The position numbers and the translations under genes were made by a program. Below the pieces are notes generated by a model that was not told the origin of the DNA, did not search any database, and saw nothing but the letters and a program-made list of their open reading frames with translations. From a virus, in the IMG/VR virus record IMGVR_UViG_3300027996_000201, positions 1 through 21,245 of that record: a DNA stretch of 21,245 nt, one strand, 5' to 3'. How positions within the stretch are numbered: position 1 is the first letter of the stretch; each line of letters opens with the position of its first letter. This document shows, piece by piece, positions 325 to 21,245 of the stretch.

Positions 325-327
325 GCT

Positions 328-2156: not shown

Positions 2157-2162
2157 AAAAAC

Positions 2163-2465: not shown

Positions 2466-2527
2466 CCTCAGAAGGTTCGGAGCAATCCGGGTCGGCTGAG
2501 GCTGCCACTTTCGATTACTTACAAGGC

Positions 2528-2827
2528 TTGGCGTGCGGGCAGCTTCGGCTGTCCCCGTCCGAGTTTTGGAACATAACACCGCGGGAGCTACATAACGCTC
2601 TACGGGGGTGCGCCGAAGCTGAGGGGCTAAAGCAACAGAGCGACTGGGAGCGCACACGCTGGCAGACAGTGGCTCTCATAAACATCCAACTACCTAAAGG
2701 TAAGAGTGTTAAGGCACAAGACTTAGCGTTGTTCCCATGGGAAAAGAAGGAGAAGAAAAATACACTTTCGCAAGAACAGGCGAAAGAGATACTTGAAAAA
2801 TGGCAAAGAAAAGCAATAAGAGCATAA
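2528..2827 (+). CDS. Tail assembly chaperone second part, gpT-like (probably expressed as frameshift extension)
   Basis: This frame, -1 relative to the upstream chaperone, is open from 2441 to 2827. It carries LRLSPSEFWNITPRELHNAL, which matches the 'L..SP..FW..TP.EL' signature of the TAC_6/DUF2376 tail chaperone family also seen in gene transfer agents. No ATG or GTG exists anywhere in the frame before the stop. The only conventional alternative start is the TTG at 2528; an ATA at 2462 follows GGAGG closely but ATA is a rare start. I think it is mainly translated by -1 frameshifting from the preceding gene. The C-terminal half is Lys/Glu-rich and helical. It overlaps the tape measure start by 28 bases. 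Confidence 0.78.
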   Translation: MACGQLRLSPSEFWNITPRELHNALRGCAEAEGLKQQSDWERTRWQTVALINIQLPKGKSVKAQDLALFPWEKKEKKNTLSQEQAKEILEKWQRKAIRA

Positions 2828-5364: not shown

Positions 5365-8300
5365 ATGGCAGTAAGATTAAGAGCTGAATTTCACAGCGAC
5401 AATAGCGATCTCTACAAGATAGACCTCCATGATGAGGACTGGCTCGGTGGTGTGCATGACTTTACCGTTGGTGGCGAGGGACTTTCCTTGGATTATCAAG
5501 GCGGTACAGATGATTTGATAAGCCCTATTATATCATCTGAACTAACATTCTCTATTGCAACAAGGAGTGGTCAAACGGAATCATATATTAACGATGTAAA
5601 AACATATCAAGAATCCCGATTTAGGATTGTCGTATATAAAGATTCATCCATTTATTGGGTTGGGTGGGTGATGCAGGACCTTATAGAGGTTGAGGATGCG
5701 GCAGACCCTTACTTTGTTATTGTAAAGGCTGTCGACGGTATTGGTCGCTTAAGCAATATAGAGTATGAAGACGCTAACGACATATCTCAAGGCGGAGGAT
5801 TAAGGCTGACAAATATCGTTGATATAGCTCACAAATCTCTATCTAAGATTGGAACCCGTGACCTATGGGGCAGTACAGACACATATCTTCAGACATCGGC
5901 AGACTGGTGGGAGACGTCCTTAATGACTTATTCAGCCACAGACAATCCATTAGATGATATTGCTCTTGATGTTCGCATATTCCAAGATTACGACGGAGAC
6001 GGAAACATTGTAAACGCTAATGTTTATGATGTATTGCATCAGGTGGCAACGGCGTTTAACGCGAGGGTATATCAAGCAGACGGACGCTTTGTTATGGAGC
6101 AGTATGGTCAGCTTGACTCATCCTCTCGATTGGTGTTTAAGTATGACAAAACAGCGACTTTTTTGTCCTATGAAACGGTAACTAACGATATATCAATAGA
6201 TCAAACGTCTAATGCGGCACGATTGGCGGGGAACATGCACAACTTTATTCCCGCAGTATCAAGGGCCGAGGTTACATATAATCAGAAGTTCTTAGACCCG
6301 TGGATCACGACCCTGCCATTTGACTCCGCGAGGACACAATATAGCTTGGGATTTATCGCAGGAGGTACGGGCACAACGCTTACGCTTACTGGCACAGTTA
6401 AATACAACACACAGGTAACAGGCGCATCATATAATGATGGTGTATTGATGCCTATCTACCGTATGGAGATACGCGTTGAGGACGTTAATAACGCAGGCAC
6501 ATATCACTACTTACGACGGGACTACAACGGCATTGGTGGCGCTGGCGCTACCTATGGCAATGCCCTGTGGCAGACATCACAAGCGTATTACTACTTTGAT
6601 GCTGATGACGAGAGAACGACAGATGGTGAATTATTCATATATAACAACTTAGCACTAAGTTCATTACCACTTCCCGTGAGTGGCGACCTACGCGTAACAA
6701 TTGAGTTATATAACGTATACAAGCAACCCACTGGTAACCTATTTACTCTTGGCACTAACCAGACGCAAACTTGGATTATTCTCGCTAACATATCAAGAGA
6801 AGAGGATGGTGCGGGGGCAGCGGACTCAGAGGTGTTTATTGCCAATAACTCATCGACAGGTGTTGATAGCAATCTGATCCTAGACGTAGGTTCTATAAAC
6901 ATTGGTGACGGTCTACTTCAGACTGGACATTTATGTGCCTACAATGGCACGGCGTGGGGGTCTTCGTCATCGTGGCGTAAAGGATCAACTGGCACAGGTG
7001 TCAGCTTCCTTCAGTTACTTGTCAGGGAGGCTTTAGCCCTACACTACTTACCCATTGAAAGGTATAACGGGTCAATATCTGGGGACTTCTCCTTTGGGCA
7101 GCGCATCACGTTCAGCTCTATGGAGTTAGTGATGATGGGCGGATCTTTTGGTGCGACAGGAAATACATGGAGCGCGGAATGGTTTGTTATAGATAGAAAT
7201 ACGTCCACGGTTGGTGATGGTCCCATAGAGCTTGGGGCACTAAGAACACCTATCGGTGGCGGAACATCACCAACAAACGGCGGAACGGCTAACGACATCC
7301 CAACGGGTAAGATTGGCGGCATGGTTATAAATCTCGATGACGAGAAGCTCGGCCCCTTCCAACAGGTAACCGGCGGTGCTGCTATCGTCGGTGGCTTGAA
7401 AGATGGCGAAGGGTCCTTCGGATCATCAGGTCAGGTGCTGTCATCAACGGTCACGGGACTAAGCTGGATAACCAGCGCTTCTAGCAACGACTACGTTGAT
7501 GGCGTGACTTTCAATACCTCTGATGGTATCGTAACGCTCACACGCAGCGGCGGCCTTGCTGACCTCACGGTAGACCTTGACGGGCGCTACCTCACCACGC
7601 ATCCCGCGATACCTAACTCTGGGTCTATAAACAACGCCAACGGGGTGGTGGTACAAGATGTCACCATCGATGCCTACGGTCACTCTACAGCTTGGGGGAC
7701 GGTAGACCTCGATGATAGGTTCACGCAGCTTGGCGACCCACAGGTCGTCACGGTGAAGAATATGGAGGCTACGGCAACGCTTGCTAAAGGCACGCCGGTA
7801 TATGCCGTGGACCCATCATCTAGCGGCAACATCATAGGCGTTAAAGCAGCAGACGCTTCTAGCTCTGCCACGATGCCCGCTGTCGTTATCATGAACGAAT
7901 CTGTGACGGCAGGAAGCGAGGGCGAAGCACTTATCGTGGGGGTGATAAGAGGTGTAGATACATCCTCCTTCACCTCTGGTGATGTGGTGTATGTGGCCTC
8001 TGGCGGTGGATTCACCAACGTCAAGCCCACAGGCACGAACCTTATTCAGAACCTAGGTGTTGTGATGAAGGTACACGCCACCAACGGGTCCGGGGTTATA
8101 TACGGATCAGGACGCGCTAACGATGTCCCTAACATCCCTAACTCACAGGCGTGGGTAGGTAACGCGTCAGGGGTGGCTACGCCCACTACGCTGAGTATAA
8201 CCAACTGGAACACCGCATATACCTACTCAACTGTAGGGCATCTGCCTCTTGCTGGTGGTACGTTGACCGGAGGGCTGACGGGTACAACGGCTACGTTCTC

Positions 8301-11300
8301 AGGACAGGTAACGATACCGGCTGTACCGGTGTCTAACACAGACGCTGCCTCGAAGCAGTACATAGATAATAAAGTTGCTGGGGCCTTGATATACCTAGGC
8401 ACATGGAACGCAAACACAAATACCCCAACGCTGGTATCAGGTACAGGCACGGTGGGTACATACTATATCGTTGCTACAGACGGGACCACAACCTTAGACG
8501 GCATCAGCGACTGGATCACCGGTGACTGGGCGATCTTCTCTGACCTCCCGACAGACGCATGGCAGAAGATTGATAACACCTCCATCCTCGGTGGTGCGGG
8601 AACAGGGGGTAACATAGCAGCATGGTCCGGTAGCGGAACATCAGTGACGCTTACAGATGCCCCTATCACATATAGTGGTAGCAATACGACTTTTGGGGGT
8701 ACTATAGCAGCCACCGGTGGTACGTCCACGCAATGGAACACAGCCTACGCCTACTCACAGGTAGGGCATCTGCCTTTGGCGGGGGGTACGCTGACGGGGA
8801 ACACATTTGTTAACGCTCAACTAGGCGTTAACACGACAACTATAAACTCTGCTAACAAATTAGAGGTTCACGGTCAAGCTAGAGTTGATGGTAAGATGAT
8901 GATTGGTGATAGCTCTTTATCTAACACTGTAAATGCAGCTGTACAATTACATATAAAAAACACTGGTCAAGCAGCTATTAGATTAGAAGACTCAGACAGC
9001 AGCAATTTAGCTTTTGATATTATTGCAGACGAGGGCGTTGGTTTCGTAATAAAAGAAACTGTAGGTGGTGACGCTGGTGATGACGTTAGACTTACAATAG
9101 CTGAAACTACTGGCAACGCAACCTTCGCAGGGACCATCGCCGCATCTAACCTCTCAGGCACAAACACCGGTGATCAAGACTTAAGCCCTTATGCTCCTTT
9201 AGCTTCTCCAACATTTACGGGAAGCCCACGCTCTGTGACTCCTGCCACTGCAAGCAATGATACGAGCGTTGCTACTACCGCATACGTTAAGGCACAGGGA
9301 TATAGCACGGCAGCAGGCACTGTGACCTCTGTGGCGATGACCGTTCCCACAGGGTTAACTGTATCTGGTACGCCCGTTACTACGTCAGGAACGCTTGCCG
9401 TAGTATTCGCATCTGGATACTCCATACCTACCAATACAGGTCAGAGCAACTGGAACACCGCATACACCTACTCACAGGTAGGGCATCTGCCGTTGGCGGG
9501 TGGTACGCTGACGGGGAATGTTTATGTAGGTAGTGCAACAACCAATGGTGGTGTTATTAATTTAATTCAATCAGCGACAAACCCTGAAATAAGAATACAA
9601 TCTGGTGAAAGCGGTACAACTGCTTTTAGCATTTATAATACTGCTACTAATCCTGACGCAGAACAATTTTTTATAAACAATACTTTAGGTACATCTCATC
9701 TAGGAAATAAAAGAGGTGCTTTAAAACTTGAAACATCCTCTGGGGTTGCGCTTACACTAAGTGGTTTAAACGCAACCTTCGCAGGGACCATCGCCGCAAC
9801 AGGTGGCACCTCCACACAGTGGAACACCGCCTATGGTTGGGGTGACCACGCCGGGCTTTATCTACGACTAGCGGGTGATACTATGGCCGGGACCATTGAG
9901 ATGGACGGCAACACTATCAACGATGGTATCTTCGTAACGCAGGGAGGAACGTCCGATGACTTCGTTAAAGGTGATGGGTCGTTAGACTCTACAGCGTATC
10001 TGGCGCTGACGGGGGGGACGTTGACGGGGAATACTATTCATAATGACAATGTAAAGTCTATTTATGGAACAGCAAGTGATGGTCTTGAAATATACCACGA
10101 TGGTTCACATTCTTATATTTCTGATACAGGAACAGGGGATTTAACCATTAGAGCATCTAATGATTTACGTTTACAATCAGCATCAACAGAAGCATATTTA
10201 ACTTGTAACGAAAATGGTTCAGTACAGATATACTATAATAACTCAGAGAGGTTAGCAACTTCAAGCGCAGGTGTTACTGTAACGGGGTTGATGCTTGCAT
10301 CAACAGTGGGGGTCACAAACATAGTTACCAATAAAGTAGTTAAGTTTAATGGTTCTATACTTGATGACTCTAATATAACTGACACAGGTTCTCTTATAAC
10401 CCTTGGCTCTGCTGTTACCGCAACAGGCACAGTTACATCCCCTACATTCTTAGGCGACCTCAGCGGCACAATAAACACAGCTACCACGGCGGTAACACAA
10501 GCAGCAAGTAATAACTCTACAAAGGTGGCAACGACTGCTTATGCAGATGCAGCCGCTGCAGCCGTTCCCGTCGGGGATTACCTCCCCCTTGCAGGTGGTA
10601 CCATGTCAGGAGATGTTGATATGGGCGGCAACAGGATCACCGAGGGTGTATTCGTAACGCAGAGTGGCACATCCGATGACTTCCTTAAAGGTGATGGTAC
10701 GCTAGACTCTACAGCGTACTTAACCGGAACAGGAGCTGCAACACAAGTTGCTTTCTGGGATACAACAAATTCATTAAGTGGAAACAGTAATTTATACTGG
10801 GACAATACAAATGGCCATTTAGGAATAGGTGATTCCACACCGGGTTCTAAATTAAAAGTTTATAGTGGGGTAAACGAAACAAGTATTTACACTGTAGATA
10901 TTAATCACGTAAGAAATGACGCGAATGTAGCTACAAACGCTATGAGGCTAAATGTAGATTTAAGTGGTGCTGACACTACAACTACGGATAGAACAAACAG
11001 CGGTTTGTTTATAGATTTAGATTCATCTGCTAACGGAGATGCCTCTAACGAACATAGAATTAAAGGAGTTAACTCTGACGTTAGATTTTCAGGGTTCTCT
11101 GATTCAGTTCAATCTGGTTATTTTTTAGCTGAGTCAAATTATCTTTTAGGAAAAACAGCACAGTTAGTAGGTGTTTTTGGACAGGCTTCTCACGACACCA
11201 GTTCAACAGATGGGGGTGTCAGTAATATGTATGGGGTTCTTGGAACAAGTTCAGTACAGGATTTAGGAGATGTTGACAATGCTTTTGGAGGTTACTTTTC

Positions 11301-11760
11301 AGTTACTATAAGCACAAATAGAGGTAATGCCAATGTAGGTGTTACAAAAGGAGTTGAGGGTCATATTGACATAGACAAAGCAGATACTATAACCTACGGA
11401 GAAATGATGGCTGTCTCAGGTATCATTGATAATAACGAAGGTACTGTACCTACATTTGGAAACCAATATTTATTCAAAGGTGATTATCAAGGTGATAGAG
11501 GCGCTAACGCTTGGGGCATATACACAGAAGGCGACAAGAACTATTTTGAAGGTGATGTCGGCATCGGCCTCACGGCTCCACAGTCCAAGCTCCAAGTGGA
11601 TGGCGGCATCCAGATGTCTGATGACACGGACACAGCTTCAGCGAGTAAGGTAGGAACACAGAGGTACAGGACATCAGGTAACAATAGCTATGTAGATATG
11701 TGCATGCAAACAGGAGCGACCACATACGAGTGGATTAACATTTTAGAAAACAACTGGTAA
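5365..11760 (+). CDS. Giant tail-tip/fibre protein: baseplate-like N-terminus plus repeat-built fibre
   Basis: This 2131-residue protein starts directly after the tape measure stop, with AGAGGA ahead of the ATG. Residues 1 to about 640 look like a tail-tip protein (IYWVGWVMQDLIEVEDA, VKAVDGIGRL, FSFGQRITFSSMEL) of the kind found after tape measure genes in marine phages; exact homology is uncertain. From about 640 the chain is fibre-like. It has a KGTPVYAVDPSSSG module (about 790-915), repeated LPLAGGTLTG motifs, SNDTSVATTAYV, YHDGSHSYI, and near the end GDVGIGLTAPQSKLQVDG. It closes with CMQTGATTYEWINI, a fibre terminus I recognise from aquatic phages. It probably forms a trimeric receptor-binding fibre anchored at the tail tip. 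No S74 chaperone domain is seen. Base composition changes sharply between modules. Confidence 0.85.
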   Translation: MAVRLRAEFHSDNSDLYKIDLHDEDWLGGVHDFTVGGEGLSLDYQGGTDDLISPIISSELTFSIATRSGQTESYINDVKTYQESRFRIVVYKDSSIYWVGWVMQDLIEVEDAADPYFVIVKAVDGIGRLSNIEYEDANDISQGGGLRLTNIVDIAHKSLSKIGTRDLWGSTDTYLQTSADWWETSLMTYSATDNPLDDIALDVRIFQDYDGDGNIVNANVYDVLHQVATAFNARVYQADGRFVMEQYGQLDSSSRLVFKYDKTATFLSYETVTNDISIDQTSNAARLAGNMHNFIPAVSRAEVTYNQKFLDPWITTLPFDSARTQYSLGFIAGGTGTTLTLTGTVKYNTQVTGASYNDGVLMPIYRMEIRVEDVNNAGTYHYLRRDYNGIGGAGATYGNALWQTSQAYYYFDADDERTTDGELFIYNNLALSSLPLPVSGDLRVTIELYNVYKQPTGNLFTLGTNQTQTWIILANISREEDGAGAADSEVFIANNSSTGVDSNLILDVGSINIGDGLLQTGHLCAYNGTAWGSSSSWRKGSTGTGVSFLQLLVREALALHYLPIERYNGSISGDFSFGQRITFSSMELVMMGGSFGATGNTWSAEWFVIDRNTSTVGDGPIELGALRTPIGGGTSPTNGGTANDIPTGKIGGMVINLDDEKLGPFQQVTGGAAIVGGLKDGEGSFGSSGQVLSSTVTGLSWITSASSNDYVDGVTFNTSDGIVTLTRSGGLADLTVDLDGRYLTTHPAIPNSGSINNANGVVVQDVTIDAYGHSTAWGTVDLDDRFTQLGDPQVVTVKNMEATATLAKGTPVYAVDPSSSGNIIGVKAADASSSATMPAVVIMNESVTAGSEGEALIVGVIRGVDTSSFTSGDVVYVASGGGFTNVKPTGTNLIQNLGVVMKVHATNGSGVIYGSGRANDVPNIPNSQAWVGNASGVATPTTLSITNWNTAYTYSTVGHLPLAGGTLTGGLTGTTATFSGQVTIPAVPVSNTDAASKQYIDNKVAGALIYLGTWNANTNTPTLVSGTGTVGTYYIVATDGTTTLDGISDWITGDWAIFSDLPTDAWQKIDNTSILGGAGTGGNIAAWSGSGTSVTLTDAPITYSGSNTTFGGTIAATGGTSTQWNTAYAYSQVGHLPLAGGTLTGNTFVNAQLGVNTTTINSANKLEVHGQARVDGKMMIGDSSLSNTVNAAVQLHIKNTGQAAIRLEDSDSSNLAFDIIADEGVGFVIKETVGGDAGDDVRLTIAETTGNATFAGTIAASNLSGTNTGDQDLSPYAPLASPTFTGSPRSVTPATASNDTSVATTAYVKAQGYSTAAGTVTSVAMTVPTGLTVSGTPVTTSGTLAVVFASGYSIPTNTGQSNWNTAYTYSQVGHLPLAGGTLTGNVYVGSATTNGGVINLIQSATNPEIRIQSGESGTTAFSIYNTATNPDAEQFFINNTLGTSHLGNKRGALKLETSSGVALTLSGLNATFAGTIAATGGTSTQWNTAYGWGDHAGLYLRLAGDTMAGTIEMDGNTINDGIFVTQGGTSDDFVKGDGSLDSTAYLALTGGTLTGNTIHNDNVKSIYGTASDGLEIYHDGSHSYISDTGTGDLTIRASNDLRLQSASTEAYLTCNENGSVQIYYNNSERLATSSAGVTVTGLMLASTVGVTNIVTNKVVKFNGSILDDSNITDTGSLITLGSAVTATGTVTSPTFLGDLSGTINTATTAVTQAASNNSTKVATTAYADAAAAAVPVGDYLPLAGGTMSGDVDMGGNRITEGVFVTQSGTSDDFLKGDGTLDSTAYLTGTGAATQVAFWDTTNSLSGNSNLYWDNTNGHLGIGDSTPGSKLKVYSGVNETSIYTVDINHVRNDANVATNAMRLNVDLSGADTTTTDRTNSGLFIDLDSSANGDASNEHRIKGVNSDVRFSGFSDSVQSGYFLAESNYLLGKTAQLVGVFGQASHDTSSTDGGVSNMYGVLGTSSVQDLGDVDNAFGGYFSVTISTNRGNANVGVTKGVEGHIDIDKADTITYGEMMAVSGIIDNNEGTVPTFGNQYLFKGDYQGDRGANAWGIYTEGDKNYFEGDVGIGLTAPQSKLQVDGGIQMSDDTDTASASKVGTQRYRTSGNNSYVDMCMQTGATTYEWINILENNW
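8206..9519 (+). repeat. Three dispersed copies of a ~65-70 bp WNTAY..VGHLPLAGGTLTG repeat
   Basis: Near-identical in-frame copies lie at 8206-8270, 8734-8802 and 9451-9519. Each encodes WNTAY(T/A)YS(T/Q)VGHLPLAGGTLTG. A diverged fourth copy begins at 9820 (WNTAYGWGDHAGLYLRLAGDTMAG). Further LALTGGTLTG and LPLAGGTMSG copies occur near 10000 and 10580. The copies are GC-rich, and different AT-rich sequence follows the copies at 8734 and 9451. Confidence 0.85.
9115..9144 (+). repeat. 30-bp exact direct repeat, copy 1 (second copy 9769-9798)
   Basis: The 30 bases reading AACGCAACCTTCGC... through ...ATCGCCGCA occur identically at 9115-9144 and 9769-9798. They encode NATFAGTIAA in both places and are exactly 654 bases (218 codons) apart. 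Recombination between them would remove or add a fibre module without changing the reading frame. Confidence 0.85.
9868..10010 (+). repeat. Paralogous fibre repeat, copy 1 (second copy 10588-10730)
   Basis: The segment coding for LAGDTMAGTIEMDGNTINDG, FVTQGGTSDDFVKGDGSLDSTAYL has a clear second copy 720 bases downstream. That copy codes for LAGGTMSGDVDMGGNRITEG, FVTQSGTSDDFLKGDGTLDSTAYL. TTCGTAACGCAG begins at 9931 and at 10651, and TCCGATGACTTC follows in both. The in-frame spacing of 240 codons indicates module duplication. Confidence 0.8.
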
Positions 11761-14700
11761 TGAGTAAAAAATATACAACCGACAATATCACTATCTCCGA
11801 AGCACTTAATGACGGCTCAGGAGTAGGAACAAGCGGTCAGGTCCTGTCGTCCACAGGGTCTGGCGTAAGCTGGATTGACGGCTCTGGAATCGTCGGTGGT
11901 CCTTACCTTGCGCTGTCTGGGGGTACGATGACTGGGGCGTTGACGGGTACTACTGCAAACTTTACAGGTGGTATATTAACATTGGGTCAAAATAAAATAG
12001 ATGGCTCGTCTGATAATTTAAAAATATCAGCAGATTTTGGAAGTGTTAGTGGTTCTTCTACTATTGAGTTTTTAATTGATGGAAGTGAGAAATTAAATAT
12101 AAATAATGGGGGAAAAGTAACGTTTAGCACAAATGGGGGGACTATTACAACTATTGGTTCTGATATTGCAATAACTCAAGGTGCTGTTGGGTTAAGAATA
12201 AATGATGCTGCATCTGCAATAAGTCCAACTACGGCAACTTCAAATAATGATAATGTAGTTGATTTGGGTGTTTCTAATATAAGGTTTAGAAATCTTTATA
12301 TGGGTGGTTCAATAACATCTGGAGGGGGAGCAACCTTTGCAGGGAATGTTACCTTTGGGGATAGTCATTTTATTGGCGATGATGCGAGTGATAATTTATT
12401 GATACAAAGCTCAACAGGAGAAAATATTATTATTGATTCTTTAGACGAAACGTTATTTAGGATTAATGGTAGCACTAAAATGCAAATCAAAAGTAGTGGC
12501 AACGTCGGGATTGGAAACACCAACCCCACCTCTGGCTTATCTGTTACAAAGTCAATGGGGGCCGCTTGGTTAGTTGATTTCGTAAACACAAATGTTAGCG
12601 GACACGGTTTACTTATTCAGGCGGGCGGAACAACAGGCACACGTTATATCACACAATGGAAAGATGCTTTAGGCACGGAAAGATTCCATATGGAAGATAA
12701 TGGTGAAGTTTATTTTCAAGGCAACGTCGGGATTGGGACGACTAGTCCTGCTCAAAAGTTAGACGTTAACGGAAATTTAGCAATTAGCGGCACTACCTTT
12801 GTAGACTCTACAAGAAGAAATATTTATTTAAATTCTTTTGCAGGCGGCGGAGCTAATGGTATTTTCTTTAGAGACGGTTTTACATATAACGCTTCTATTA
12901 CCGCTGAAGATCATAATGGGTCTTCTGCTGATGGTATTTGTATTAGCGGTTACGACGGTGTTTCTTTTTCTACTGGAGCTAATACCAAAAACGAAAGAAT
13001 GCGTATCACCTCAGCAGGCAACGTCGGGATCGGGACGACTGCTCCGGGTTACCCTTTTTCTTTAGAAAACAGCGGGACGGCATTAATATCTAGGATTTAT
13101 AATACTAATGCTGACGGGCAAGGTTTACTTATAAGAGCAGGAGCTACAAACTCATCAACACGAGCGTTTCAAGTAGCGTCTTCTAATGACACTAAAATAA
13201 TGACCGTTAACTCCAACGGCAACGTCGGGATCGGGACGACAACGCCTGAAAATTTATTACACGTTCAGCAAGCTGGTTTATTTACAGGAATACATACAAC
13301 AGCAGGTATTAGGGTAAAATCAAGCGGAGCAAGCGCAATAGATAATTATCACGGAACAATAGCTTTATCAAGGGGCACAGGTTCTGTAGCAATTTCAGCA
13401 GTACAAGAAGCTACAGATAGTGACGTAATGGGTATGGCGTTTTTTACACACCCCTCAACCACAGGAGCTGATGCTGCTGTAGAGCAAATGAGAATTGACC
13501 AGAACGGCAACGTCGGTATTGGGACTACTAGCCCTACTGGTAAATTAACAGTATATACTTCAGCTAACAGATTCCAATCGCTTAAAGGTGCGAATGCTGA
13601 TTTAGAAATAGTTTCCGATAATAATACAAACCCTGTAGCACTTATTAAGGGGACTGGGACTGCTGATTTGTTAAATGTTTTTGATAATACAACAGAAGTA
13701 TTTACTATTAGAGACGGAGGCAACGTCGGGATTAAAAATACTAATCCTAGTTATCTATTAGATATTGGCGCAGCTAATGTTGAAAATCCAGTTGATTACA
13801 TAAGATTAAATCCAACTAACGGAAACGGAGATGGAACCTCAAATACATTAGGTGGTGGTTTAATATGGGCACCAAACTATGCTACTTATACAAAAAAATC
13901 AGCAGGTATAATAGCTGTAGGTGAGGGAAATTATTTCAGAACAGGTTTAGCTTTTCTTACTAACAATAGTGCTAACCAAACAGGAAATTACGCTGAACGA
14001 ATGCGTATTACAAGTGGGGGGGAATTACGAGTAGGGCATAATTCAGGAACATATACAAATACTCAAACTTTTGCTTCATTTGGAAATACAGTTGTAGCTG
14101 ATGAATATGGGGTTCAATTAAGTTCTAAGGGAAATGGACTTGCAGGAATGTTTGGGTCAAATACTCATTGGGCTAATGGCACATTTAGTAAACCAACATC
14201 AGGAAGGTCATCAGGTTATTTAGAAATTTCAAATAGCGGTAGTAATAATACAGGTAGTTCATTTAATTTTTATACTGTACCTCAAGGAAGTACAACGCAT
14301 ACAAGTAGAATGACCATTGACAGCGCAGGCAACGTCGGCATCGGAGATTCTTCACCGTCTTACAAATTAGATGTAAACGGTACAGGTAGATTTACAGGTG
14401 TCTTGTACGCCAACACATACGTTAACACCCCAGCGGTTTACGGTACTACTGTATCAGTGGGTGGTGCGGCAGGTGGGTCACCAAGACTTAACTTCTCGGC
14501 TACGGGAATAACGACACAGGGAACCGGTGATATATCACTACTTTCCGGCAACATCGGTATAAACACCACCGCGCCCCTAGCGAAGCTCGACGTAAGGGGT
14601 ACGCTACGCTCTGACCAAGACAGCAGCGGCCCAAACGGGACATCAGGCGTAGGGGAACTTGATACACTGATAGGCGATGCAGGACCTGACAATACCGCTT

Positions 14701-14777
14701 TAGGCACTCCAGACCAATGGTTGAGGATTAACATCTCAGGCTCGGACTACGTTATACCAGCATATACCGCACCATGA
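11760..14777 (+). CDS. Second tail fibre protein with NVGIGTTSP-type repeats
   Basis: This 1005-residue protein starts at an ATG overlapping the previous stop (TAATG). Its N-terminal part (GTSGQVLSST, VSWI, YLALSGGTMTGALTGTTANFTG) is paralogous to segments inside the preceding fibre (GSSGQVLSST at about 7420, LAGGTLTGGLTGTTATFSG at about 8240). The body is built from eight copies of a GNVGIG-like turn, usually followed by TTSPxxKLDVNG, a common phage fibre repeat. It ends GTPDQWLRINISGSDYVIPAY, a fibre terminus I recognise from aquatic phages. No S74 self-cleaving chaperone or sugar-degrading domain is visible. It likely forms an additional side or tip fibre binding host surface structures. 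Unique modules are very AT-rich, unlike the GC-rich anchors and C-terminus. Confidence 0.82.
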   Translation: MSKKYTTDNITISEALNDGSGVGTSGQVLSSTGSGVSWIDGSGIVGGPYLALSGGTMTGALTGTTANFTGGILTLGQNKIDGSSDNLKISADFGSVSGSSTIEFLIDGSEKLNINNGGKVTFSTNGGTITTIGSDIAITQGAVGLRINDAASAISPTTATSNNDNVVDLGVSNIRFRNLYMGGSITSGGGATFAGNVTFGDSHFIGDDASDNLLIQSSTGENIIIDSLDETLFRINGSTKMQIKSSGNVGIGNTNPTSGLSVTKSMGAAWLVDFVNTNVSGHGLLIQAGGTTGTRYITQWKDALGTERFHMEDNGEVYFQGNVGIGTTSPAQKLDVNGNLAISGTTFVDSTRRNIYLNSFAGGGANGIFFRDGFTYNASITAEDHNGSSADGICISGYDGVSFSTGANTKNERMRITSAGNVGIGTTAPGYPFSLENSGTALISRIYNTNADGQGLLIRAGATNSSTRAFQVASSNDTKIMTVNSNGNVGIGTTTPENLLHVQQAGLFTGIHTTAGIRVKSSGASAIDNYHGTIALSRGTGSVAISAVQEATDSDVMGMAFFTHPSTTGADAAVEQMRIDQNGNVGIGTTSPTGKLTVYTSANRFQSLKGANADLEIVSDNNTNPVALIKGTGTADLLNVFDNTTEVFTIRDGGNVGIKNTNPSYLLDIGAANVENPVDYIRLNPTNGNGDGTSNTLGGGLIWAPNYATYTKKSAGIIAVGEGNYFRTGLAFLTNNSANQTGNYAERMRITSGGELRVGHNSGTYTNTQTFASFGNTVVADEYGVQLSSKGNGLAGMFGSNTHWANGTFSKPTSGRSSGYLEISNSGSNNTGSSFNFYTVPQGSTTHTSRMTIDSAGNVGIGDSSPSYKLDVNGTGRFTGVLYANTYVNTPAVYGTTVSVGGAAGGSPRLNFSATGITTQGTGDISLLSGNIGINTTAPLAKLDVRGTLRSDQDSSGPNGTSGVGELDTLIGDAGPDNTALGTPDQWLRINISGSDYVIPAYTAP
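12498..14570 (+). repeat. Eight GNVGIG-coding repeat anchors
   Basis: The sequence GGCAACGTCGG begins at 12498, 12720, 13017, 13218, 13506, 13719 and 14328. A diverged copy, GGCAACATCGG, lies at 14547. Codon choice (GGC AAC GTC GGG/T/C AT) is nearly identical in all copies, although the 200-600 bases between them are unrelated in sequence and much richer in A and T. Confidence 0.88.
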
Positions 14778-14889: not shown

Positions 14890-15231
14890 ATGACAACTAC
14901 ATATACATGGGACTGCAAAACGGTAGACGTTTACCCCACAAACCAAGAAGAAACCGATGTCGTGTACAACGTACACTGGATCGTAACAGGAACCTCAGAT
15001 GAGCTGGACCCACAGGGTGTGGCCTACTCTTCAGGGAGTATCGGCACACAGACACTCTCTGTTGACGACATCACAGACTTCATCCCATTTGCTGACTTAA
15101 CCAATGCGGATTGTGTTGCGTGGACTCAGGCAACTATGGGCGCAGAACAGGTTACTGCAATAGAGGCAGGTATCGAGGCCGCTATCGTGCAGCTTATTAC
15201 CCCCACCTCGGTCACGATGGTTATCGGTTAA
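14890..15231 (+). CDS. Marine phage conserved protein, DUF7936-like
   Basis: The 113-residue product resembles a small protein family found after fibre genes in many aquatic phages, with the opening TTTYTW, then YPTNQEETDVVYNVHWIVTG and a C-terminal half WTQATMGAEQVTAIEAGIEAAI. I believe this is the family called DUF7936; no function is established. The first half looks beta-rich and the second is a helix. The A/T-rich leader GAAATAAATAATT carries no Shine-Dalgarno sequence. Its location suggests a virion or tail accessory role, as inference only. Confidence 0.7.
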   Translation: MTTTYTWDCKTVDVYPTNQEETDVVYNVHWIVTGTSDELDPQGVAYSSGSIGTQTLSVDDITDFIPFADLTNADCVAWTQATMGAEQVTAIEAGIEAAIVQLITPTSVTMVIG

Positions 15232-15262
15232 TTTATATAGTAAAAAGTATTATATTTATACC
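15232..15262 (+). promoter_or_regulatory. AT-rich leader before the lysis-region genes
   Basis: This 31-base gap is one of few non-overlapping junctions in the late region and is almost entirely A and T (TTTATATAGTAAAAAGTATTATATTTATA). It could hold a promoter -10-like element (TATATT or TTTATA), but no matching -35 element is convincing. It may simply be an AT-rich ribosome entry region without Shine-Dalgarno sequence. Confidence 0.25.
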
Positions 15263-15499
15263 ATGAAAATAAGAGAAGAGTTAATGGACAGCATCAAGGA
15301 TGCTAGAAATAAAATGAGCGCCATACAGAACGAGCTAGGCTCAATGCCTATCCGTAAGGCTGCGCTTATCAAAGCATTCGCAGATCAAGAGGCAGAGGCA
15401 CAGGCTGTCTCTGACGCTATCCGTGAGGAGTACGGCGATGGTATGGTAGACCTTGAGACCGGTGAGTTCACCGCGAACGAGGACGAAGATGAATCCTAA
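15263..15499 (+). CDS. Small coiled-coil protein (78 aa), unknown role
   Basis: The product is 78 residues, nearly all helical, with heptad-like MKIREELMDSIKDARNKMSAIQNELGSM and a second helix AALIKAFADQEAEAQAVSDAIREEYGDG. It ends in an acidic tail (EFTANEDEDES). It has no signal peptide or membrane segment. Similar short coiled-coil proteins with an 'EEYGD..(V/I)D..TGE(F/Y)T' ending occur near the lysis genes of aquatic phages, but I know no assigned function. Its end overlaps the next gene by 11 bases, so it is probably co-expressed with the holin block. Confidence 0.7.
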   Translation: MKIREELMDSIKDARNKMSAIQNELGSMPIRKAALIKAFADQEAEAQAVSDAIREEYGDGMVDLETGEFTANEDEDES

Positions 15500-15662
15500 C
15501 GAGTCGCTTTTTGTTTCATGGGTAGGGTCTTTCGCTACCATCTTTGTCATGGATGATATTATGCAGACCATCACCGCCATAGGCACAATCATCTTTACCG
15601 TCACCATGATAGTAAAAAACATTCAAGAGATAATTAAGAAAAGAAATGAAAAAGATAAATGA
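15489..15662 (+). CDS. Small membrane protein (57 aa), holin-like candidate
   Basis: I start this gene at the ATG at 15489, preceded by GAGGA eight bases upstream, rather than at a non-ATG codon 36 bases earlier. The 57-residue product has a hydrophobic N-terminal segment (LFVSWVGSFATIFVM) and a clear membrane helix (ITAIGTIIFTVTMIVKNI, about residues 28-45). The tail is strongly basic (EIIKKRNEKDK). A short membrane span with a positively charged cytoplasmic tail is holin- or antiholin-like. No family is recognised. It overlaps both neighbours, by 11 and 17 bases. Confidence 0.6.
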   Translation: MNPNESLFVSWVGSFATIFVMDDIMQTITAIGTIIFTVTMIVKNIQEIIKKRNEKDK

Positions 15663-15792
15663 TTACATCCTCGCCAACCTAAAGCATATCACGTTAGGCT
15701 TTTGGATATGCTTCCTTCTATCGCTGTATGACTCTTCTTTGGCGCTATTCGCCATCGCAGGGATGTGGCTGTATTGGATTGCCAAACGGTAA
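15646..15792 (+). CDS. Tiny membrane protein (48 aa), holin-like candidate
   Basis: This 48-residue frame starts at an ATG inside the end of the preceding gene (17-base overlap). It stops in TAA, with TAATG overlapping the holin start. The product begins with a short basic stretch (MKKINDYILANLKHI), followed by two hydrophobic helices (TLGFWICFLLSLYD and LALFAIAGMWLYWIA) and ends KR. Two short spans and charged ends suit a pinholin or holin partner. I recognise no family. The coding call rests on overlap coupling and the strongly patterned hydrophobicity. Confidence 0.58.
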   Translation: MKKINDYILANLKHITLGFWICFLLSLYDSSLALFAIAGMWLYWIAKR

Positions 15793-16148
15793 TGCCTAAC
15801 ATCTTTAAAACCCTATTGGGCACCTCCGCATCGGACGTGGTGAAAGAGGTTGGTAAGATAGCCGATAAGTTCATCGAGACACCCGAAGAGAAGAGAGCCT
15901 TCCAAGCCTCCATCGAGCAGATGGTAGCAGAGAAATGGAAGGCAGATATGTCATCTGATAGCTGGCTCAGTAAAAATATACGACCAATGACACTTGCTTT
16001 GGTTATGGTCACCCTTGTCGTGCTGACCTTCTTTGATGGTGCAGGGCTTCTAACTATCTCAGAGAGATGGATAGGTCTATGGGAGCTTGTAAGTATCAGT
16101 GTTGTAGGCGGTTACTTTGCCGTAAGGACCATAGACAAGCGAAGATGA
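15792..16148 (+). CDS. 3TM-type holin
   Basis: I start the gene at the ATG at 15792, which overlaps the previous stop (TAATG), giving 118 residues. The product matches the 3TM holin family also found in gene transfer agents: a soluble helical N-terminus (ASDVVKEVGKIADKFIETPEEKRAFQ), the conserved ADMSSDSWLSKNIRP at residues 51-65, membrane spans at about 66-84 and 95-112, and a basic end (DKRR). Holins permeabilise the inner membrane at the end of infection to let lysis proceed. Two spans are clear; a third is not. No endolysin gene is next to it or anywhere else in the window. Confidence 0.83.
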   Translation: MPNIFKTLLGTSASDVVKEVGKIADKFIETPEEKRAFQASIEQMVAEKWKADMSSDSWLSKNIRPMTLALVMVTLVVLTFFDGAGLLTISERWIGLWELVSISVVGGYFAVRTIDKRR

Positions 16149-16246
16149 CAGATGATTTTAACGACTGGGTAACCGGTCTTGAAGAAGGTGAGCAGCCAGA
16201 GGCTTGCGCTATTGACGACCCCGATTGCGAGGCTTGCGGTAGTTAA
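16145..16246 (+). CDS. 33-residue acidic cysteine-containing peptide
   Basis: This frame starts at an ATG overlapping the holin stop (ATGA) and ends at TAA before the terminator. The product is acidic and carries three cysteines in its C-terminal part (ACAIDDPDCEACGS), spaced C-x6-C-x2-C, after MTDDFNDWVTGLEEGEQPE. The spacing could bind a metal or form disulfides, but three cysteines are too few for a classical zinc site within one chain. No family is recognised. The ATGA overlap and the clean end before the terminator support it as a real gene, but its small size keeps confidence moderate. Confidence 0.5.
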   Translation: MTDDFNDWVTGLEEGEQPEACAIDDPDCEACGS

Positions 16247-16333
16247 CAACAATTTTTTCGTATGTTTGCCTCGTAAAGAATTAGCGATGGAGTAGTTTTT
16301 TTCTTGTTTTGTTTTGTTTAACGCTCCTCGTTC
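16247..16333 (+). other. T-rich untranslated stretch between last late gene and terminator
   Basis: These 87 bases hold runs of T (CAATTTTTTCG, GTAGTTTTTTTCTTGTTTTGTTTTGTTTA) and no convincing reading frame, stem or tRNA-like fold. I see no function beyond being the 3' untranslated part of the late transcript. Confidence 0.4.
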
Positions 16334-16366
16334 GCCCCACGCCTGAACATCGTGGGGCTTTTTTTT
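16334..16366 (+). terminator. Intrinsic (Rho-independent) terminator of the late operon
   Basis: A perfect 8-bp stem GCCCCACG / CGTGGGGC encloses a 9-base loop and is followed directly by eight T. It lies 88 bases after the last late-region stop and separates morphogenesis/lysis genes from replication genes. The reverse direction lacks a T tract after the stem, so it should act on + strand transcripts only. Confidence 0.93.
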
Positions 16367-16470
16367 GCCCCATACAACAATCTTTATTGATATACAACTG
16401 CGTCTGTTTAAAACTTTAATATATCTTAGTGGATGTATAACGGGGATGATCCCCACAATTCTATTTAACT
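16367..16470 (+). promoter_or_regulatory. Probable promoter/leader of the replication operon
   Basis: This 104-base AT-rich gap follows the terminator and precedes the first replication gene, so a promoter is expected. TTGATA at 16387-16392 could be a -35 element, but the best -10 candidates (TAAAAC, TAATAT) match poorly. TATCTTAG at 16422-16429 differs by one base from the Bacteroidota -7 consensus TAnnTTTG but has no well-placed upstream TTG. The leader before the ATG has no Shine-Dalgarno sequence. The exact promoter remains unassigned. Confidence 0.4.
16442..16454. promoter_or_regulatory. Palindrome GGGGATGATCCCC, possible operator or leader hairpin
   Basis: Arms GGGGAT and ATCCCC are perfectly complementary around a single central G. 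The site ends 16 bases before the start codon of the first replication gene. As DNA it looks like a small operator; as RNA it can form GGGG/CCCC with a 5-base loop. Confidence 0.4.
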
Positions 16471-16968
16471 ATGAGCAAACCAGATTTTGCAAACGGTGTC
16501 CGCACAATTCTAAGCGGCACCACAACATGGGCGCAACTCACTCCAACGAGTGGCCCTAACCAGTTCTCGGAGAAGTACCAAGTGGATCTTACACTTGATG
16601 CTAAATCCGTAAAGGAGATTGAGTCACTAGGCGTGGCAGATTTCCTTAATATCAAAGACCAAGAAGGCGTGGCTAAGTACGACACTTTAACAGTGCGTAT
16701 AAAAACCAACAAGCCCCCACAGGTATTTGACCGCAACAAGGCCGTATTTGATGATTACATCCATAACGGTTCCGTCATGCGCGTAGCTGGACTGATTAAG
16801 TCTTGGGAGTATATGAGTAAGAAAGGACTCACTTGCTACTTCAACCAAGGTGTGGTCCTAGAAGCCGCTGAACGCCAAGAGGGCGAAGGTGGTGGCATCA
16901 ACGATGCCCTATTCAACGACATGCCGACAGCATCAGCACCTGCAACAGACGATGGGCTTCCCTTCTAA
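16471..16968 (+). CDS. Single-stranded DNA-binding protein, phage OB-fold type
   Basis: This 165-residue protein looks like the phage ssDNA-binding proteins of the T7 gp2.5/DUF2815 kind. The N-terminal part (TTWAQLTPTSGPNQFSEKYQVDLTL) is a beta strand region followed by KSVKEIESLGVADFL. Later come NGSVMRVAGLIKSWEYMSKKGLTCYFNQGVVL strands. The C-terminus is a flexible Gly/Ala/acidic tail ending DDGLPF, closely similar to the DDDIPF tip that bacterial SSB uses to dock partner proteins. It is first in the replication operon and would coat single strands for the downstream exonuclease and primase-helicase. The leader has no Shine-Dalgarno sequence. The next gene starts 17 bases before its stop. 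Confidence 0.75.
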   Translation: MSKPDFANGVRTILSGTTTWAQLTPTSGPNQFSEKYQVDLTLDAKSVKEIESLGVADFLNIKDQEGVAKYDTLTVRIKTNKPPQVFDRNKAVFDDYIHNGSVMRVAGLIKSWEYMSKKGLTCYFNQGVVLEAAERQEGEGGGINDALFNDMPTASAPATDDGLPF

Positions 16969-17386
16969 TTCACGCAGACGTATCCTCGCAGCCGTAGCAC
17001 TCTCAGAGAGAGTCTGCGGTCTGCAAGAGGACTCTATCCTGTCACCATTGCGTGAGAGGGATAACGTGACGGCAAGGCAGATGGTGTATGTATACGCACG
17101 GCTTACTTGGAAATACACATACCAGCGCATTGGTACGGTGGTTAAAAGAAACCACTCCACCGTCGTATACTCCATCAAACGCCATCATGAGATGTTGGGT
17201 AAATACCCACATACAGGCAAGTATATCTATCCCGAATATGTATCAAACTGGACCACCTTTGAGCAGATAATGGACGACAGATTTAAAGAAAAGGCAAACC
17301 ACTGCCACAGCTGCGGTCAAGATGTGGACATCTATGAGTCTGAGACTTTAGATGTTGTAACAAACAATAACTACGAGACAGCATGA
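16952..17386 (+). CDS. DnaA domain IV-like DNA-binding protein with C-terminal CxxC
   Basis: I start this at the ATG at 16952 (MGFPSNSRRR), a 17-base overlap with the SSB gene; an upstream start at 16889 would overlap more and adds unlikely sequence. In the 144-residue product, residues about 35-80 resemble the C-terminal DNA-binding domain of the bacterial initiator DnaA: VTARQMVYVYARL, then YTYQRIGTVVKRNHSTVVYSIKR. NHSTV stands where DnaA has DHSTV, the loop that contacts the DnaA box. The AAA+ ATPase domain of DnaA is absent. A single CHSCG motif at 118-122 could be half of a metal site. It may mark a phage origin, compete with host DnaA, or act as a regulator. Confidence 0.72.
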   Translation: MGFPSNSRRRILAAVALSERVCGLQEDSILSPLRERDNVTARQMVYVYARLTWKYTYQRIGTVVKRNHSTVVYSIKRHHEMLGKYPHTGKYIYPEYVSNWTTFEQIMDDRFKEKANHCHSCGQDVDIYESETLDVVTNNNYETA

Positions 17387-18099
17387 AAAAGTACCTACCG
17401 CTATCGTTCTCTTCTATAAAGGAGTTTGCGAAGTCCCCCAACCACTTTATCTACTACAAGAACAAAAAGCGCAAGTCAAGCCCGGCAATGCTCAAAGGAA
17501 GCGCAGTACACACCATGGTCTTGGAGCCGCAGGAGTTTGAGCTTAGATATTTCGTTATCCCCGACGGTACAAACAGAGGCACCAAGGCATGGAAGGAGTA
17601 CGCATCTATCGCCGCTGATCGTGAGATACTCAAAGAGGTAGAGTATAACGTCATCGCTAAGATGGCACGCATGGTATGTGAGCATTACGATGCCCGCGAG
17701 ATACTTAAAGAAGCCACTGAGTTTGAGCAGCATATCAAGCTAGAGTTCAACGGTCTACCGTTCCATGGCTTTGCAGACATCGTAACACCTAATATAGTAT
17801 GCGACCTTAAGACAACAAGGGACAGCACCGCCAAAGCATTCATGCGCACGGTATTGGACTTTAAGTACCACTGGCAAGCAGCGCTATATATGAAGGCCAC
17901 CGGGAAGAAGACCTTTAGGTTTATTACTATAGAGTCCTCAGCGCCATACAGCGTTGTGGTATATGAGCTGTCTCAAGACCTTCTAGACAAGGCGGTGATG
18001 GAGCTTATAGAGGTCACCAATAAGTTCAAAGCATGGGATGGTCTTGAGCAGGGATATGTCGAGGGCGTTCAAATGTTAGAGATGCCGTCATGGATGTAG
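17383..18099 (+). CDS. RecE-like / RecB-family PD-(D/E)XK exonuclease (DUF3799)
   Basis: The 238-residue product has the ordered motifs of the exodeoxyribonuclease VIII (RecE C-terminal) group: LKGSAVHTMVLEP with H43, HGFADIV with D132, CDLKTT with D141-L-K143, and HWQAALY (Q165, Y169), the RecB-family QxxxY motif. Such enzymes chew 5' ends of double-stranded DNA to expose strands for annealing or recombination. SSB is two genes upstream and a VRR-NUC nuclease two genes downstream, but no RecT/Erf-type annealing protein is seen in the window. The start overlaps the preceding stop by ATGA. Nuclease assignment is firm; in vivo polarity is inferred from the family. Confidence 0.88.
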   Translation: MKKYLPLSFSSIKEFAKSPNHFIYYKNKKRKSSPAMLKGSAVHTMVLEPQEFELRYFVIPDGTNRGTKAWKEYASIAADREILKEVEYNVIAKMARMVCEHYDAREILKEATEFEQHIKLEFNGLPFHGFADIVTPNIVCDLKTTRDSTAKAFMRTVLDFKYHWQAALYMKATGKKTFRFITIESSAPYSVVVYELSQDLLDKAVMELIEVTNKFKAWDGLEQGYVEGVQMLEMPSWM

Positions 18100-18299
18100 A
18101 AGACGCTAGAATGATAGTCATAGCCTTTACCATCCGCGCAGAGGGGTATGCAGAAGATAACAACTGCGACATGACGCGGTTGCTAGTAAAAGCTATGGAC
18201 ACCCTATGTGAGCATGCCGATGACTCTATCCCCGAAACACAGGGGTGGTGGGTAACACACAGCACCGATAGAGACATCATCTATAACATTAAAAAATGA
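18090..18299 (+). CDS. Small hypothetical protein (69 aa) in the recombination operon
   Basis: This 69-residue acidic protein begins inside the end of the exonuclease gene (10-base overlap) and its stop overlaps the next start by ATGA. It starts MDVEDARMIVIAFTIRAEGYAED, continues with a helix DMTRLLVKAMDTLCEHADD, and ends WWVTHSTDRDIIYNIKK. It has no membrane segment or recognised motif. Tight packing between two nuclease genes suggests it belongs to the replication/recombination set, but no function can be assigned. Confidence 0.65.
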   Translation: MDVEDARMIVIAFTIRAEGYAEDNNCDMTRLLVKAMDTLCEHADDSIPETQGWWVTHSTDRDIIYNIKK

Positions 18300-18736
18300 A
18301 GCTGCCGACAACCATCAAGGAGCTTAAGGCTTTCGCTCATGAAGTTAACTTAGCTAAGTACCCAGATATACCTGAGTACGCAGTACCCACCCCGGTGATG
18401 AGCGATAGCAGCACCAACGCTTTAACCAAGGCAGTGATATACGACATGACCAACGTCCGCAAAGGTGTGGCATACAGGATCAACAACGCCGGTGTATACG
18501 ATCAGAAGAAAGGAGTATACCGCAAGGGTGTCACACGCAAAGGAATCCCCGACATCATAGGAATCATCAAAGGCAGATTCTATGGCATAGAGATAAAGTT
18601 TGGCGCAGACCGCCAAAGTGCAGAACAGCGTATCATAGAGCTAGAGATCAAAGCAGTCGGCGGCGTGTATCTTATCGTAAGGACATACCGCCAGTATGTG
18701 GAATCTATGAACGAGCTGTCGCGTGATTCCAGATAA
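18296..18736 (+). CDS. VRR-NUC domain nuclease
   Basis: The 146-residue product fits the VRR-NUC branch of PD-(D/E)XK nucleases. Its active-site motifs are GIPDIIG (P85-D86) and YGIEIKFG (E99-x-K101), followed by QSAEQ and VGGVYLIVRT, the usual C-terminal pattern. The first 60 residues are helical and have no recognised domain. Phage VRR-NUC proteins are thought to act as structure-specific or junction-resolving nucleases, a likely role for clearing replication branches here. The start overlaps the previous stop by ATGA and the end overlaps the next gene by 14 bases. Confidence 0.85.
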   Translation: MKLPTTIKELKAFAHEVNLAKYPDIPEYAVPTPVMSDSSTNALTKAVIYDMTNVRKGVAYRINNAGVYDQKKGVYRKGVTRKGIPDIIGIIKGRFYGIEIKFGADRQSAEQRIIELEIKAVGGVYLIVRTYRQYVESMNELSRDSR

Positions 18737-19109
18737 CAAGAAGCGTGGTGAGTGGGCAGAGGCACACTTCATAGCCGATGCTTTAATGCACGGGTGGCAG
18801 ATATTTTCTCCGCATGGTGAGAGTGGTCCATACGATGTCATCATCGCCAAAGGGGTTATGATGCACACGATACAGATAAAGTCTACCTTCGGTAGCAGCA
18901 CGACGAGATCTAAGTGGACGGTAAGCCGCGGGTCTAATCACAACAAGTCATACCACAGAGGTGTAGACTTTTTTGCCTTGTACTGTGGCCATACGAAGGT
19001 GTGGAGGTTCATAAGACAGTCAAGGATAGCGGGACGGAAGACATATAGCATACGGTACGATGAAAACAAAACAAAAAACAACTGGCATGAGCTTGAAAAC
19101 AACGATTGA
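18723..19109 (+). CDS. PD-(D/E)XK endonuclease, Holliday-junction-resolvase-like
   Basis: I use the GTG at 18723 because an in-frame TGA lies at 18708 and no ATG precedes the conserved start of the fold. The 128-residue protein has KRGEWAEAHFIADALMHGW (E10 and E13), SGPYDVII (D38) and HTIQIKST (Q51-x-K53). This spacing matches archaeal resolvase-like and PDDEXK_11 endonucleases, with Gln in place of the usual Glu. The basic, Tyr/Ser-rich C-terminal half is less conserved. It overlaps the VRR-NUC gene by 14 bases and the primase gene by up to 50 bases. Resolution or processing of branched phage DNA is the likely job. Confidence 0.78.
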   Translation: MIPDNKKRGEWAEAHFIADALMHGWQIFSPHGESGPYDVIIAKGVMMHTIQIKSTFGSSTTRSKWTVSRGSNHNKSYHRGVDFFALYCGHTKVWRFIRQSRIAGRKTYSIRYDENKTKNNWHELENND

Positions 19110-21030: not shown

Positions 21031-21245
21031 TGGATATACAAACACCCTTGGGCCAATGGTCCTTAGCAAAAGAATATGTGATCATGCGAAAGCTATGCAA
21101 GAAGATGTCATGGTTCGACGTACCTACACCACGCGATATGCCTGCACCATTAGATGGTGTGATGAGCGATGATGTAGGGATGGTCTTCGTCTATGAGGTC
21201 AAGTGCAGAGACACTACCCTTGTGCAACTACAGAACTGGGGGACC
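21030..21245 (+). CDS. Probable PD-(D/E)XK nuclease-like protein (3' truncated)
   Basis: This frame starts at an ATG overlapping the primase stop (TAATG) and runs open to the window edge, 72 codons. The visible part has a helix LAKEYVIMRKLCKKM, then LDGV (D42) and VFVYEVKCRD (E57-x-K59). The D...ExK arrangement in strand context is that of PD-(D/E)XK nucleases. Because the C-terminal half is cut off, family and activity are uncertain. It could be a nuclease of the replication module or an inactive DNA-binding relative. Confidence 0.6.
   Translation, partial: MDIQTPLGQWSLAKEYVIMRKLCKKMSWFDVPTPRDMPAPLDGVMSDDVGMVFVYEVKCRDTTLVQLQNWGT

Follow-up and report, generated by a model that had tools for sequence, protein, structure and literature searches.

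Tail-fibre mosaicism is well known, and the in-frame joining of unrelated sequences is usually left open (PMC10684548). One described route is that of the T-even gp38 adhesin, in which hypervariable specificity segments are exchanged by recombination between conserved motifs rich in glycine (Tetart, Desplats and Krisch 1998, cited in PMC12529663). Here we analyse a virus record of 21,245 bases (the whole stretch, referred to as the window) that carries, besides tail genes, two large fibre genes and genes for replication and recombination. We consider it likely that the repeated anchors in its second fibre gene (fibre 2) are short-homology recombination joints for fibre cassettes under concerted evolution, and that cassette swapping alters which bacterial surface the phage binds. 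A comparison that took in about 300 other viral sequences establishes the joint positions, their footprint, cassette mobility and a genome-wide spelling, and shows that the first 27-30 bases of the joint are where the fibre genes of different phages cross over. Adhesin exchange via conserved motifs is known; what this fibre adds to it is joints that are locked in their codons and spelled in dialects, a pattern measured over hundreds of phages.

The likeness to gp38 lies in short conserved glycine-rich motifs that flank hypervariable host-recognition segments and serve as recombination points. Unlike in gp38, the motif here is GNVGIGTTSPxxxL in a repetitive fibre, and whole domains of 57-193 aa are exchanged; added here are a synonymous footprint of ~27-30 nt, genome-wide dialects, and a measured GC3 spike. 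By analogy, exchange in fibre 2 would work like gp38 swapping, without the protein being a gp38 member. Such membership (five glycine-rich motifs, four hypervariable segments) is not met, as no Pfam family matched and the PHROG matches are to other tail fibre families. Rad52-like relaxed recombination in phage mosaicism (PMC3945230) is similar in that exchange between diverged phages is driven by homology, and in that the minimal segment of Red-beta, 23-27 bp, is near the footprint size seen here. It differs in that the homology there consists of long ordinary genes in lambdoid phages, whereas here it consists of recurrent short joints within one gene. Large-scale work on domain mosaicism (PMC10684548) likewise describes ongoing fragment shuffling in tail fibres and is explicitly agnostic on the genetic process; for one fibre class, the present finding offers a candidate.

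As a protein motif, GNVGIGTTSPxxxL is common and already known, and it resembles the Bdellovibrio MAT/S74-type capping loop. A Pfam scan matched no family in the 1005 aa of fibre 2, and a C-terminal S74 chaperone-protease was likewise not detected by it. PHROG tail fibre families do match (phrog_9942, 7.7e-32; phrog_18345, 2.3e-28), and the solved relatives of fibre 2 are the Bdellovibrio MAT fibres 8oml, 8ond, 8ojn and 8on4 (phmmer against PDB: 6.1e-8, 3.9e-7 and 2.9e-5 for the first three). In phmmer alignments the anchors fall on GNVGVG..PTAKMDV and GNVGIGATAPTAKLEV of the solved MAT chains, where such motifs form the capping loops that border beta-helix modules (PMC10769870). The V-G and P-X-X-X-L elements of the capping-loop consensus, V-G-G/N-pi-X-X-P-X-X-X-L (PMC10769870), are present in the anchors; the VG-to-P spacing is one residue longer than in that printed consensus, but the alignment to solved chains is direct anyway. 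By homology we infer that fibre 2 falls with the capping-loop fibres, at most as a non-S74 kind, and its trimeric state and beta-helix modules are part of the same inference. An AlphaFold monomer of a 227-residue, two-anchor piece had a mean pLDDT of 37.5, too low, and the model was discarded. MAT/S74-type fibres (PMC10769870) would share with fibre 2 a trimeric beta-rich fibre, the same repeated joint and interchangeable adhesive modules (E = 6e-8). Unlike the case here, the account of them concerns protein architecture, in a predatory bacterium, and we found no DNA-level exchange mechanism in the sections of that paper bearing on it.

A degenerate scan for GNVGIGTT gave matches in viral contigs and in bacterial and archaeal genomes, and among cultured phages the relatives are cyanophages and pelagiphages. 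A DNA search of the whole fibre 2 gene in annotated phages gave no match. The literature searched gave no paper on GNVGIG and nothing on point in codon or gene-conversion work on tail-fibre repeats, and in it we found no description of the motif's DNA behaviour, its codon locking. We also observe fibre-like genes with near-identical GGCAACGTCGGCATCGGG anchors in two patescibacterial contigs, L330 (Candidatus Doudnabacteria) and L390 (Paceibacterota).

Anchors and cassettes of fibre 2

Table 1. Features of the window, with positions counted from its first base
Feature	Position	Strand	Basis or remark
Fibre gene 1	5365-11760		
Tail-fibre gene 2, 1005 aa, eight GNVGI/GNIGI anchors	11760..14777	+	ORF call, PHROG families
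N-terminal part of fibre 2	11760..11936	+	conserved with sister phage; backbone-like GC3 of 0.49
Segment wholly replaced in sister phage G001	11937..15259	+	
In-gene control, non-anchor Gly-Asn-Val	12342..12350	+	spelled GGG AAT GTT
Anchor 1	12498..12524	+	GGCAACGTCGGGATTGGAAACACC
Anchor 2	12720..12746	+	GGCAACGTCGGGATTGGGACGACT
Cassette present in seven other viral contigs (L449-L455)	12750..13016	+	74-95% DNA identity
Anchor 3	13017..13043	+	GGCAACGTCGGGATCGGGACGACT; same as anchor 4 over 23 nt
Anchor 4	13218..13244	+	GGCAACGTCGGGATCGGGACGACA
Anchor 5	13506..13532	+	GGCAACGTCGGTATTGGGACTACT
Anchor 6	13719..13745	+	GGCAACGTCGGGATTAAAAATACT
Longest cassette, GC3 0.15	13749..14327	+	without relative in viral contig scan
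Anchor 7	14328..14354	+	GGCAACGTCGGCATCGGAGATTCT
Anchor 8, diverged (GNIGIN)	14547..14573	+	GGCAACATCGGTATAAACACCACC
Gp2.5-like single-strand DNA binding/annealing protein, candidate recombination factor	16471..16968	+	phrog_112 2.5e-6 (modest)
RecE/exonuclease VIII-like PD-(D/E)XK nuclease, candidate recombination factor	17383..18099	+	PF12684 2.5e-28, phrog_412 8.8e-50

The sequence-only reading of the window had claimed that seven anchors and one diverged copy keep nearly identical codons while the sequence between them is unrelated, and this held. Anchors 1 to 7 begin with exact copies of GGCAACGTCGG and anchor 8 with a one-mismatch copy, GGCAACATCGG; all eight lie in frame on the + strand and encode GNVGI or GNIGI (Table 1). 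The whole window holds 14 matches to the anchor sequence with <=2 mismatches, against 3.6 expected, and none of 100 shuffles equalled this. Within fibre 2 the seven exact anchors use GGC, AAC and GTC without exception (7/7 each), while outside anchors GTC serves 3 of 49 Val, GGC 20 of 127 Gly and AAC 23 of 77 Asn, and none of the 8 other Gly-Asn dipeptides uses GGC AAC. The probability of one common codon triple in all seven is about 9e-7, and of this very triple 1.6e-18. The codon-locked tract is not merely 11 bases long, fading instead over about 27-30 bases (codons 0 to 8 or 9 of GNVGIGTTSP).

The bodies between anchors are mutually unrelated, save for a 30-aa similarity between those following 12498 and 13017. 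Their G+C is 0.34-0.42, with the last two at 0.47 and 0.54, and that of the 30-nt anchors is 0.40-0.70. The earlier G+C counts, 14/60 at 12421-12480 and 37/60 at 14581-14640, held as well. The proposal that inserts came from AT-richer sources held only in part: such sources explain the G+C contrast incompletely, since anchors of every composition class show a GC3 excess in their own right, as set out below.

Other repeated motifs are visible nearby. Fibre 1 ends (window 11551) with an anchor-like GDVGIGLTAPQSKLQV, spelled GGT GAT GTC GGC ATC GGC, and the next fibre gene of a sister phage has a related GGDVGIGLTAPEAKLHI, spelled GGC GAC GTC GGC. Fibre 1 also contains (G)HLPLAGGTLTG-like repeats with similar codons at window positions 8248, 8776, 9493, 10006 and 10588. 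It is possible that a LALSGGT(M/L)TG or GGTLTG-like motif is a second kind of joint. When GGTLTG was tried as a control or second anchor, only 6 ORFs had multiple copies, too few for a verdict.

Codon agreement, dialects and GC3 at the joint

For each viral ORF with >=2 anchors, we asked how often its anchors choose the same synonymous codon at a given offset, taking as expectation the ORF's own codon usage outside anchor zones. Across 114 ORFs, each of codons 0 to 9 showed agreement 0.12-0.37 above expectation, and the excess was about zero at the conserved L+13 (85%), K+12, V+15 and I-4. A second, independent scan (61 ORFs) gave the same profile. Measured against other ORFs matched for GC3, agreement was raised by 0.17 to 0.28 at codons 0-6. 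Taken singly, 26 of the 43 ORFs with >=3 anchors show a significant effect (p < 0.05). The excess at Ser+8 may partly reflect the two unconnected Ser codon blocks, and between-ORF pairs also show 0.15 there; the conclusion does not need it. Loci are not phylogenetically independent, and near-identical ORFs were removed and per-locus tests used where possible. Normal synonymous divergence among anchors, which would have counted against the sequence-only reading, is not what we see: the anchors of one genome share codons much more often than its codon usage would predict.

Recent tandem duplication of modules, which would leave anchors alike as young copies, explains likeness within a gene and is in keeping with the similar bodies after anchors 1 and 3. 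We nevertheless regard it as very unlikely. Restricting the comparison to anchor pairs whose flanks are unrelated (1561 of 1676 pairs, from 166 multi-anchor ORFs) leaves the profile as it was, and the profile therefore does not stem from young duplication. Neighbouring synonymous sites show no excess, and shared cassettes retain their bodies, not their anchors.

Spelling is also shared beyond the single gene. Separate fibre genes on one contig agree at 0.65, against 0.41 expected, and there are 32 distinct 11-mers among anchors, the commonest being GGCAACGTCGG (154 of 827 anchors, on 72 contigs). Dialect tracks the sharing of cassettes: the dialect excess is 0.088 among cassette-sharing phage pairs and -0.009 among others (p = 5e-15), and within the group whose fibres are accompanied by a DUF7936 gene it is 0.122 for sharing pairs and 0.046 for others (p = 6e-6). 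Cassette-sharing phages have more similar dialects at their other anchors, too. This correlation is no proof that dialect limits exchange, and common descent contributes to it.

The joint is further marked by its composition. Against codon usage matched by amino acid, codons 0-6 have a GC3 excess of 0.10-0.31; the excess is about zero at codon 7 and beyond, and also ahead of codon -4. Both AT-rich and GC-rich ORFs have this spike. It recurs in cellular genes, where codon agreement is weaker. GC-biased repair and selection for firmer pairing, which our data do not separate, are both possible sources of the spike. Import of anchors from one mid-GC pool was rejected, as GC-rich ORFs would then show lower GC3 at their anchors and instead show higher.

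Selection on codons or RNA at the joint, for example for a pause during co-translational trimer folding or for an RNA or protein binding site, could also be considered. In its favour, the anchors of AT-rich ORFs use rarer codons than expected (0.36-0.39 vs 0.42-0.47), and the GC3 shift appears in many phages and in cellular genes. Against it, ORFs with GC3 above 0.6 go the other way, with anchors in commoner rather than rarer codons (16 ORFs only), so there is no constant rare-codon rule; spelling varies among phages while the protein is constant, so there is no fixed site; and phages of the same composition differ. We find this explanation unlikely.

Breakpoints and shared cassettes

If anchors are joints for exchange, fibre pieces shared between phages should end at them. 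We compared all fibre ORFs against each other and recorded the internal ends of HSPs of >=85% identity. Of these ends, 38-39% lie at anchors, against 12-13% at random, or about three times chance. About 60% are not at a recognised anchor, and other sites must therefore take part in exchange as well; diverged joints escape the anchor regex. Cassette order is inverted in 6 of the 20 ORF pairs with several shared pieces.

Single crossovers can be read inside anchors. The anchor at 1822 in contig L169 has the left flank of the L172 anchor at 1150 and the right flank of the L172 anchor at 2203, two joints separated in L172 by a 1053-base cassette step, and the switch falls within GGCAACGTCGGGAT, 14 shared bases. 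The cassettes of these two phages are 98-99.5% identical, while their flanks and the surrounding genome are 91% identical; the cassettes therefore moved recently, after the phages parted. The pairs L182/L198, L188/L195 and L033/L113 show similar joints.

What travels with a cassette was examined in 29 cases in which two phages share a cassette whose starting anchor lies wholly inside the alignment. Synonymous identity there is 0.64 at codons 0-8, 0.78 at codons 10-18 and 0.82 at codons 19-59, and the difference between anchor and cassette is significant (p = 3e-4 over the 29 cases; p = 8e-4 over 20 query loci). Pooling all boundary anchors gives 0.63 vs 0.80 (62 cases, p = 3e-7); in the 7 cases where the anchor is shared on both sides, the difference is not significant. 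Anchor codons thus do not travel with the cassette, and the footprint at codons 0-8 agrees with the within-genome footprint. Motif DNA more diverged than the adjoining variable cassette is the expected trace of crossing over or conversion at the motif. All of these data come from assembled metagenomic contigs, and no exchange has been seen at the level of reads or in the laboratory.

The main alternative reading of such junctions is illegitimate joining, after which selection keeps in-frame junctions at a structural joint and codon identity is a by-product. The joint is indeed a conserved structural motif (PMC10769870), at which viable junctions would cluster anyway. This explanation does not, however, predict agreement confined to codons 0-9 and absent at L+13, anchor codons tied to the genome and not to the cassette, or junctions inside 14 or more identical bases, and we consider it unlikely. 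Dedicated site-specific recombination of the shufflon or invertase type, or a diversity-generating retroelement, would likewise place short repeated sites around variable segments, and is all but excluded. The anchors are all direct, are not palindromic and vary in spelling between phages; variation takes the form of whole-cassette replacement, not adenine-directed substitution; and no recombinase, invertase or reverse transcriptase was found among the window proteins scanned, which did not include every small ORF. A shufflon or invertible segment was specifically rejected, with all anchors in frame on the + strand and no recombinase in the proteins scanned.

We return to homologous exchange at anchors, which the window's own cassettes also illustrate. 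In the seven other contigs, the cassette between anchors 2 and 3 has unrelated neighbours and other anchor spellings; the copy in L450 is 94.6% identical, with the right anchor GGAAACGTAGGAATT instead of GGCAACGTCGGGATC. In two of these contigs (L450 2012-2269 and L455 3001-3123) the left-hand junction of the shared cassette lies at a cryptic site, GNLGISGTTFVDS; the window has an ordinary GNLAISGTTFVDS there, internal to its cassette, which makes this an exchange at anchor-like sequence.

A sister phage offers a second comparison. It is 98.4% identical to the window over 15260-19494, 98.3% over 19494-21245, 90% over 1-4014 and 97.9% over 11657-11936; similarity breaks at 11936, inside a LALSGGTMTG motif. 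Its own anchors are GGCAACGTCGG, GGCCACGTCGG and GGCAACGTCGG, with GGCGACGTCGG in the next gene, keeping the GGCxACGTCGG spelling, and one more motif copy, GGTGATGTCTC, is diverged. The fibre body has been replaced and the spelling kept, and the spelling therefore goes with the phage lineage and not with the cassettes. A tape-measure scan found only two relatives, one being the sister phage; L207 is a further relative. The DUF7936 gene after fibre 2 (window 14890-15231; PF25590, 1.4e-21) was replaced along with the fibre in the sister phage, and it adjoins anchor-bearing fibres in many marine contigs. Its product is conceivably a fibre chaperone or cap. The sister phage also carries two ORFs with a DPPY motif on the minus strand (L448 3443-4093 and 4881-5525), DNA methyltransferase-like by eye only.

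The sequence-only reading had proposed that anchors act as homology tracts for cassette exchange, or were copied from one another. This is supported: related genomes are not collinear, with cassettes in differing neighbourhoods and orders, shared pieces end at anchors above random expectation, and single crossovers are readable inside anchors. The two options are not exclusive, and our data suggest both.

A proposed mechanism and its recombination genes

In the model we infer, each GNVGIGTTSPxxxL would be a capping-loop-like joint between modules, as homology suggests, and modules cut there would fit in frame. Phage or host enzymes probably expose single strands at the joints, and an anchor may then pair with another anchor in the same gene or in that of a co-infecting phage, by which whole cassettes would be inserted, deleted or replaced in frame. 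Each exchange or mismatch repair would copy letters between joints, and the joints of one genome would drift into a common dialect. The cassettes would stay unrelated, coming from varied and mostly AT-richer sources, and the GC3 excess of the joint would follow from GC-biased heteroduplex repair or selection for firmer pairing.

The exonuclease VIII-like and Gp2.5-like proteins of the window (Table 1) are possible factors, but only candidates, and their part in exchange is inferred. For a system of exonuclease plus annealing protein, the 17383-18099 protein meets the requirement of a RecE/ExoVIII-kind exonuclease; a Rad52-like annealing protein (Red-beta, RecT, Erf, Sak) was not found among the window proteins scanned. 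Exact runs between window anchors are 11-23 nt, mostly below the 23-27 bp minimal pairing segment of Red-beta (PMC3945230). Within ORFs generally, exact anchor runs average 12, vs 8 in controls, and 5.7% of within-ORF anchor pairs reach >=23 nt, vs 0.1-0.3% in controls. Short exact runs are a real weakness of the model, except if pairing tolerates mismatches or if the anchors of donor and recipient are better matched than these.

A bolder reading is that a general DNA joint of 27-30 bases, concerted across a genome's fibre genes with GC-biased conversion, occurs in the fibres of many marine phages (and less strongly in bacteria and archaea), and that lineage dialect partly governs exchange partners. 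We lean against this reading. If true, it would amount to a population-level compatibility code for host-range evolution, and would be one of the earliest indications that phages undergo GC-biased gene conversion. Even without it, the joint is here visible at base level, with a measured footprint near the minimal pairing segment of a phage annealing protein. Synonymous recoding of the joint is predicted to lower cassette exchange. Anchors offer a way to locate cassette borders in metagenomic fibres, and the GC3 spike is a lead on GC-biased conversion in phages. Should dialects limit exchange, they would help tell which phages draw on a common pool of host-range cassettes. As a minor observation on the same gene neighbourhood, a protein with a DnaA C-terminal helix-turn-helix (window 16889-17386; PF08299, 6e-11) adjoins the exonuclease VIII-like gene.
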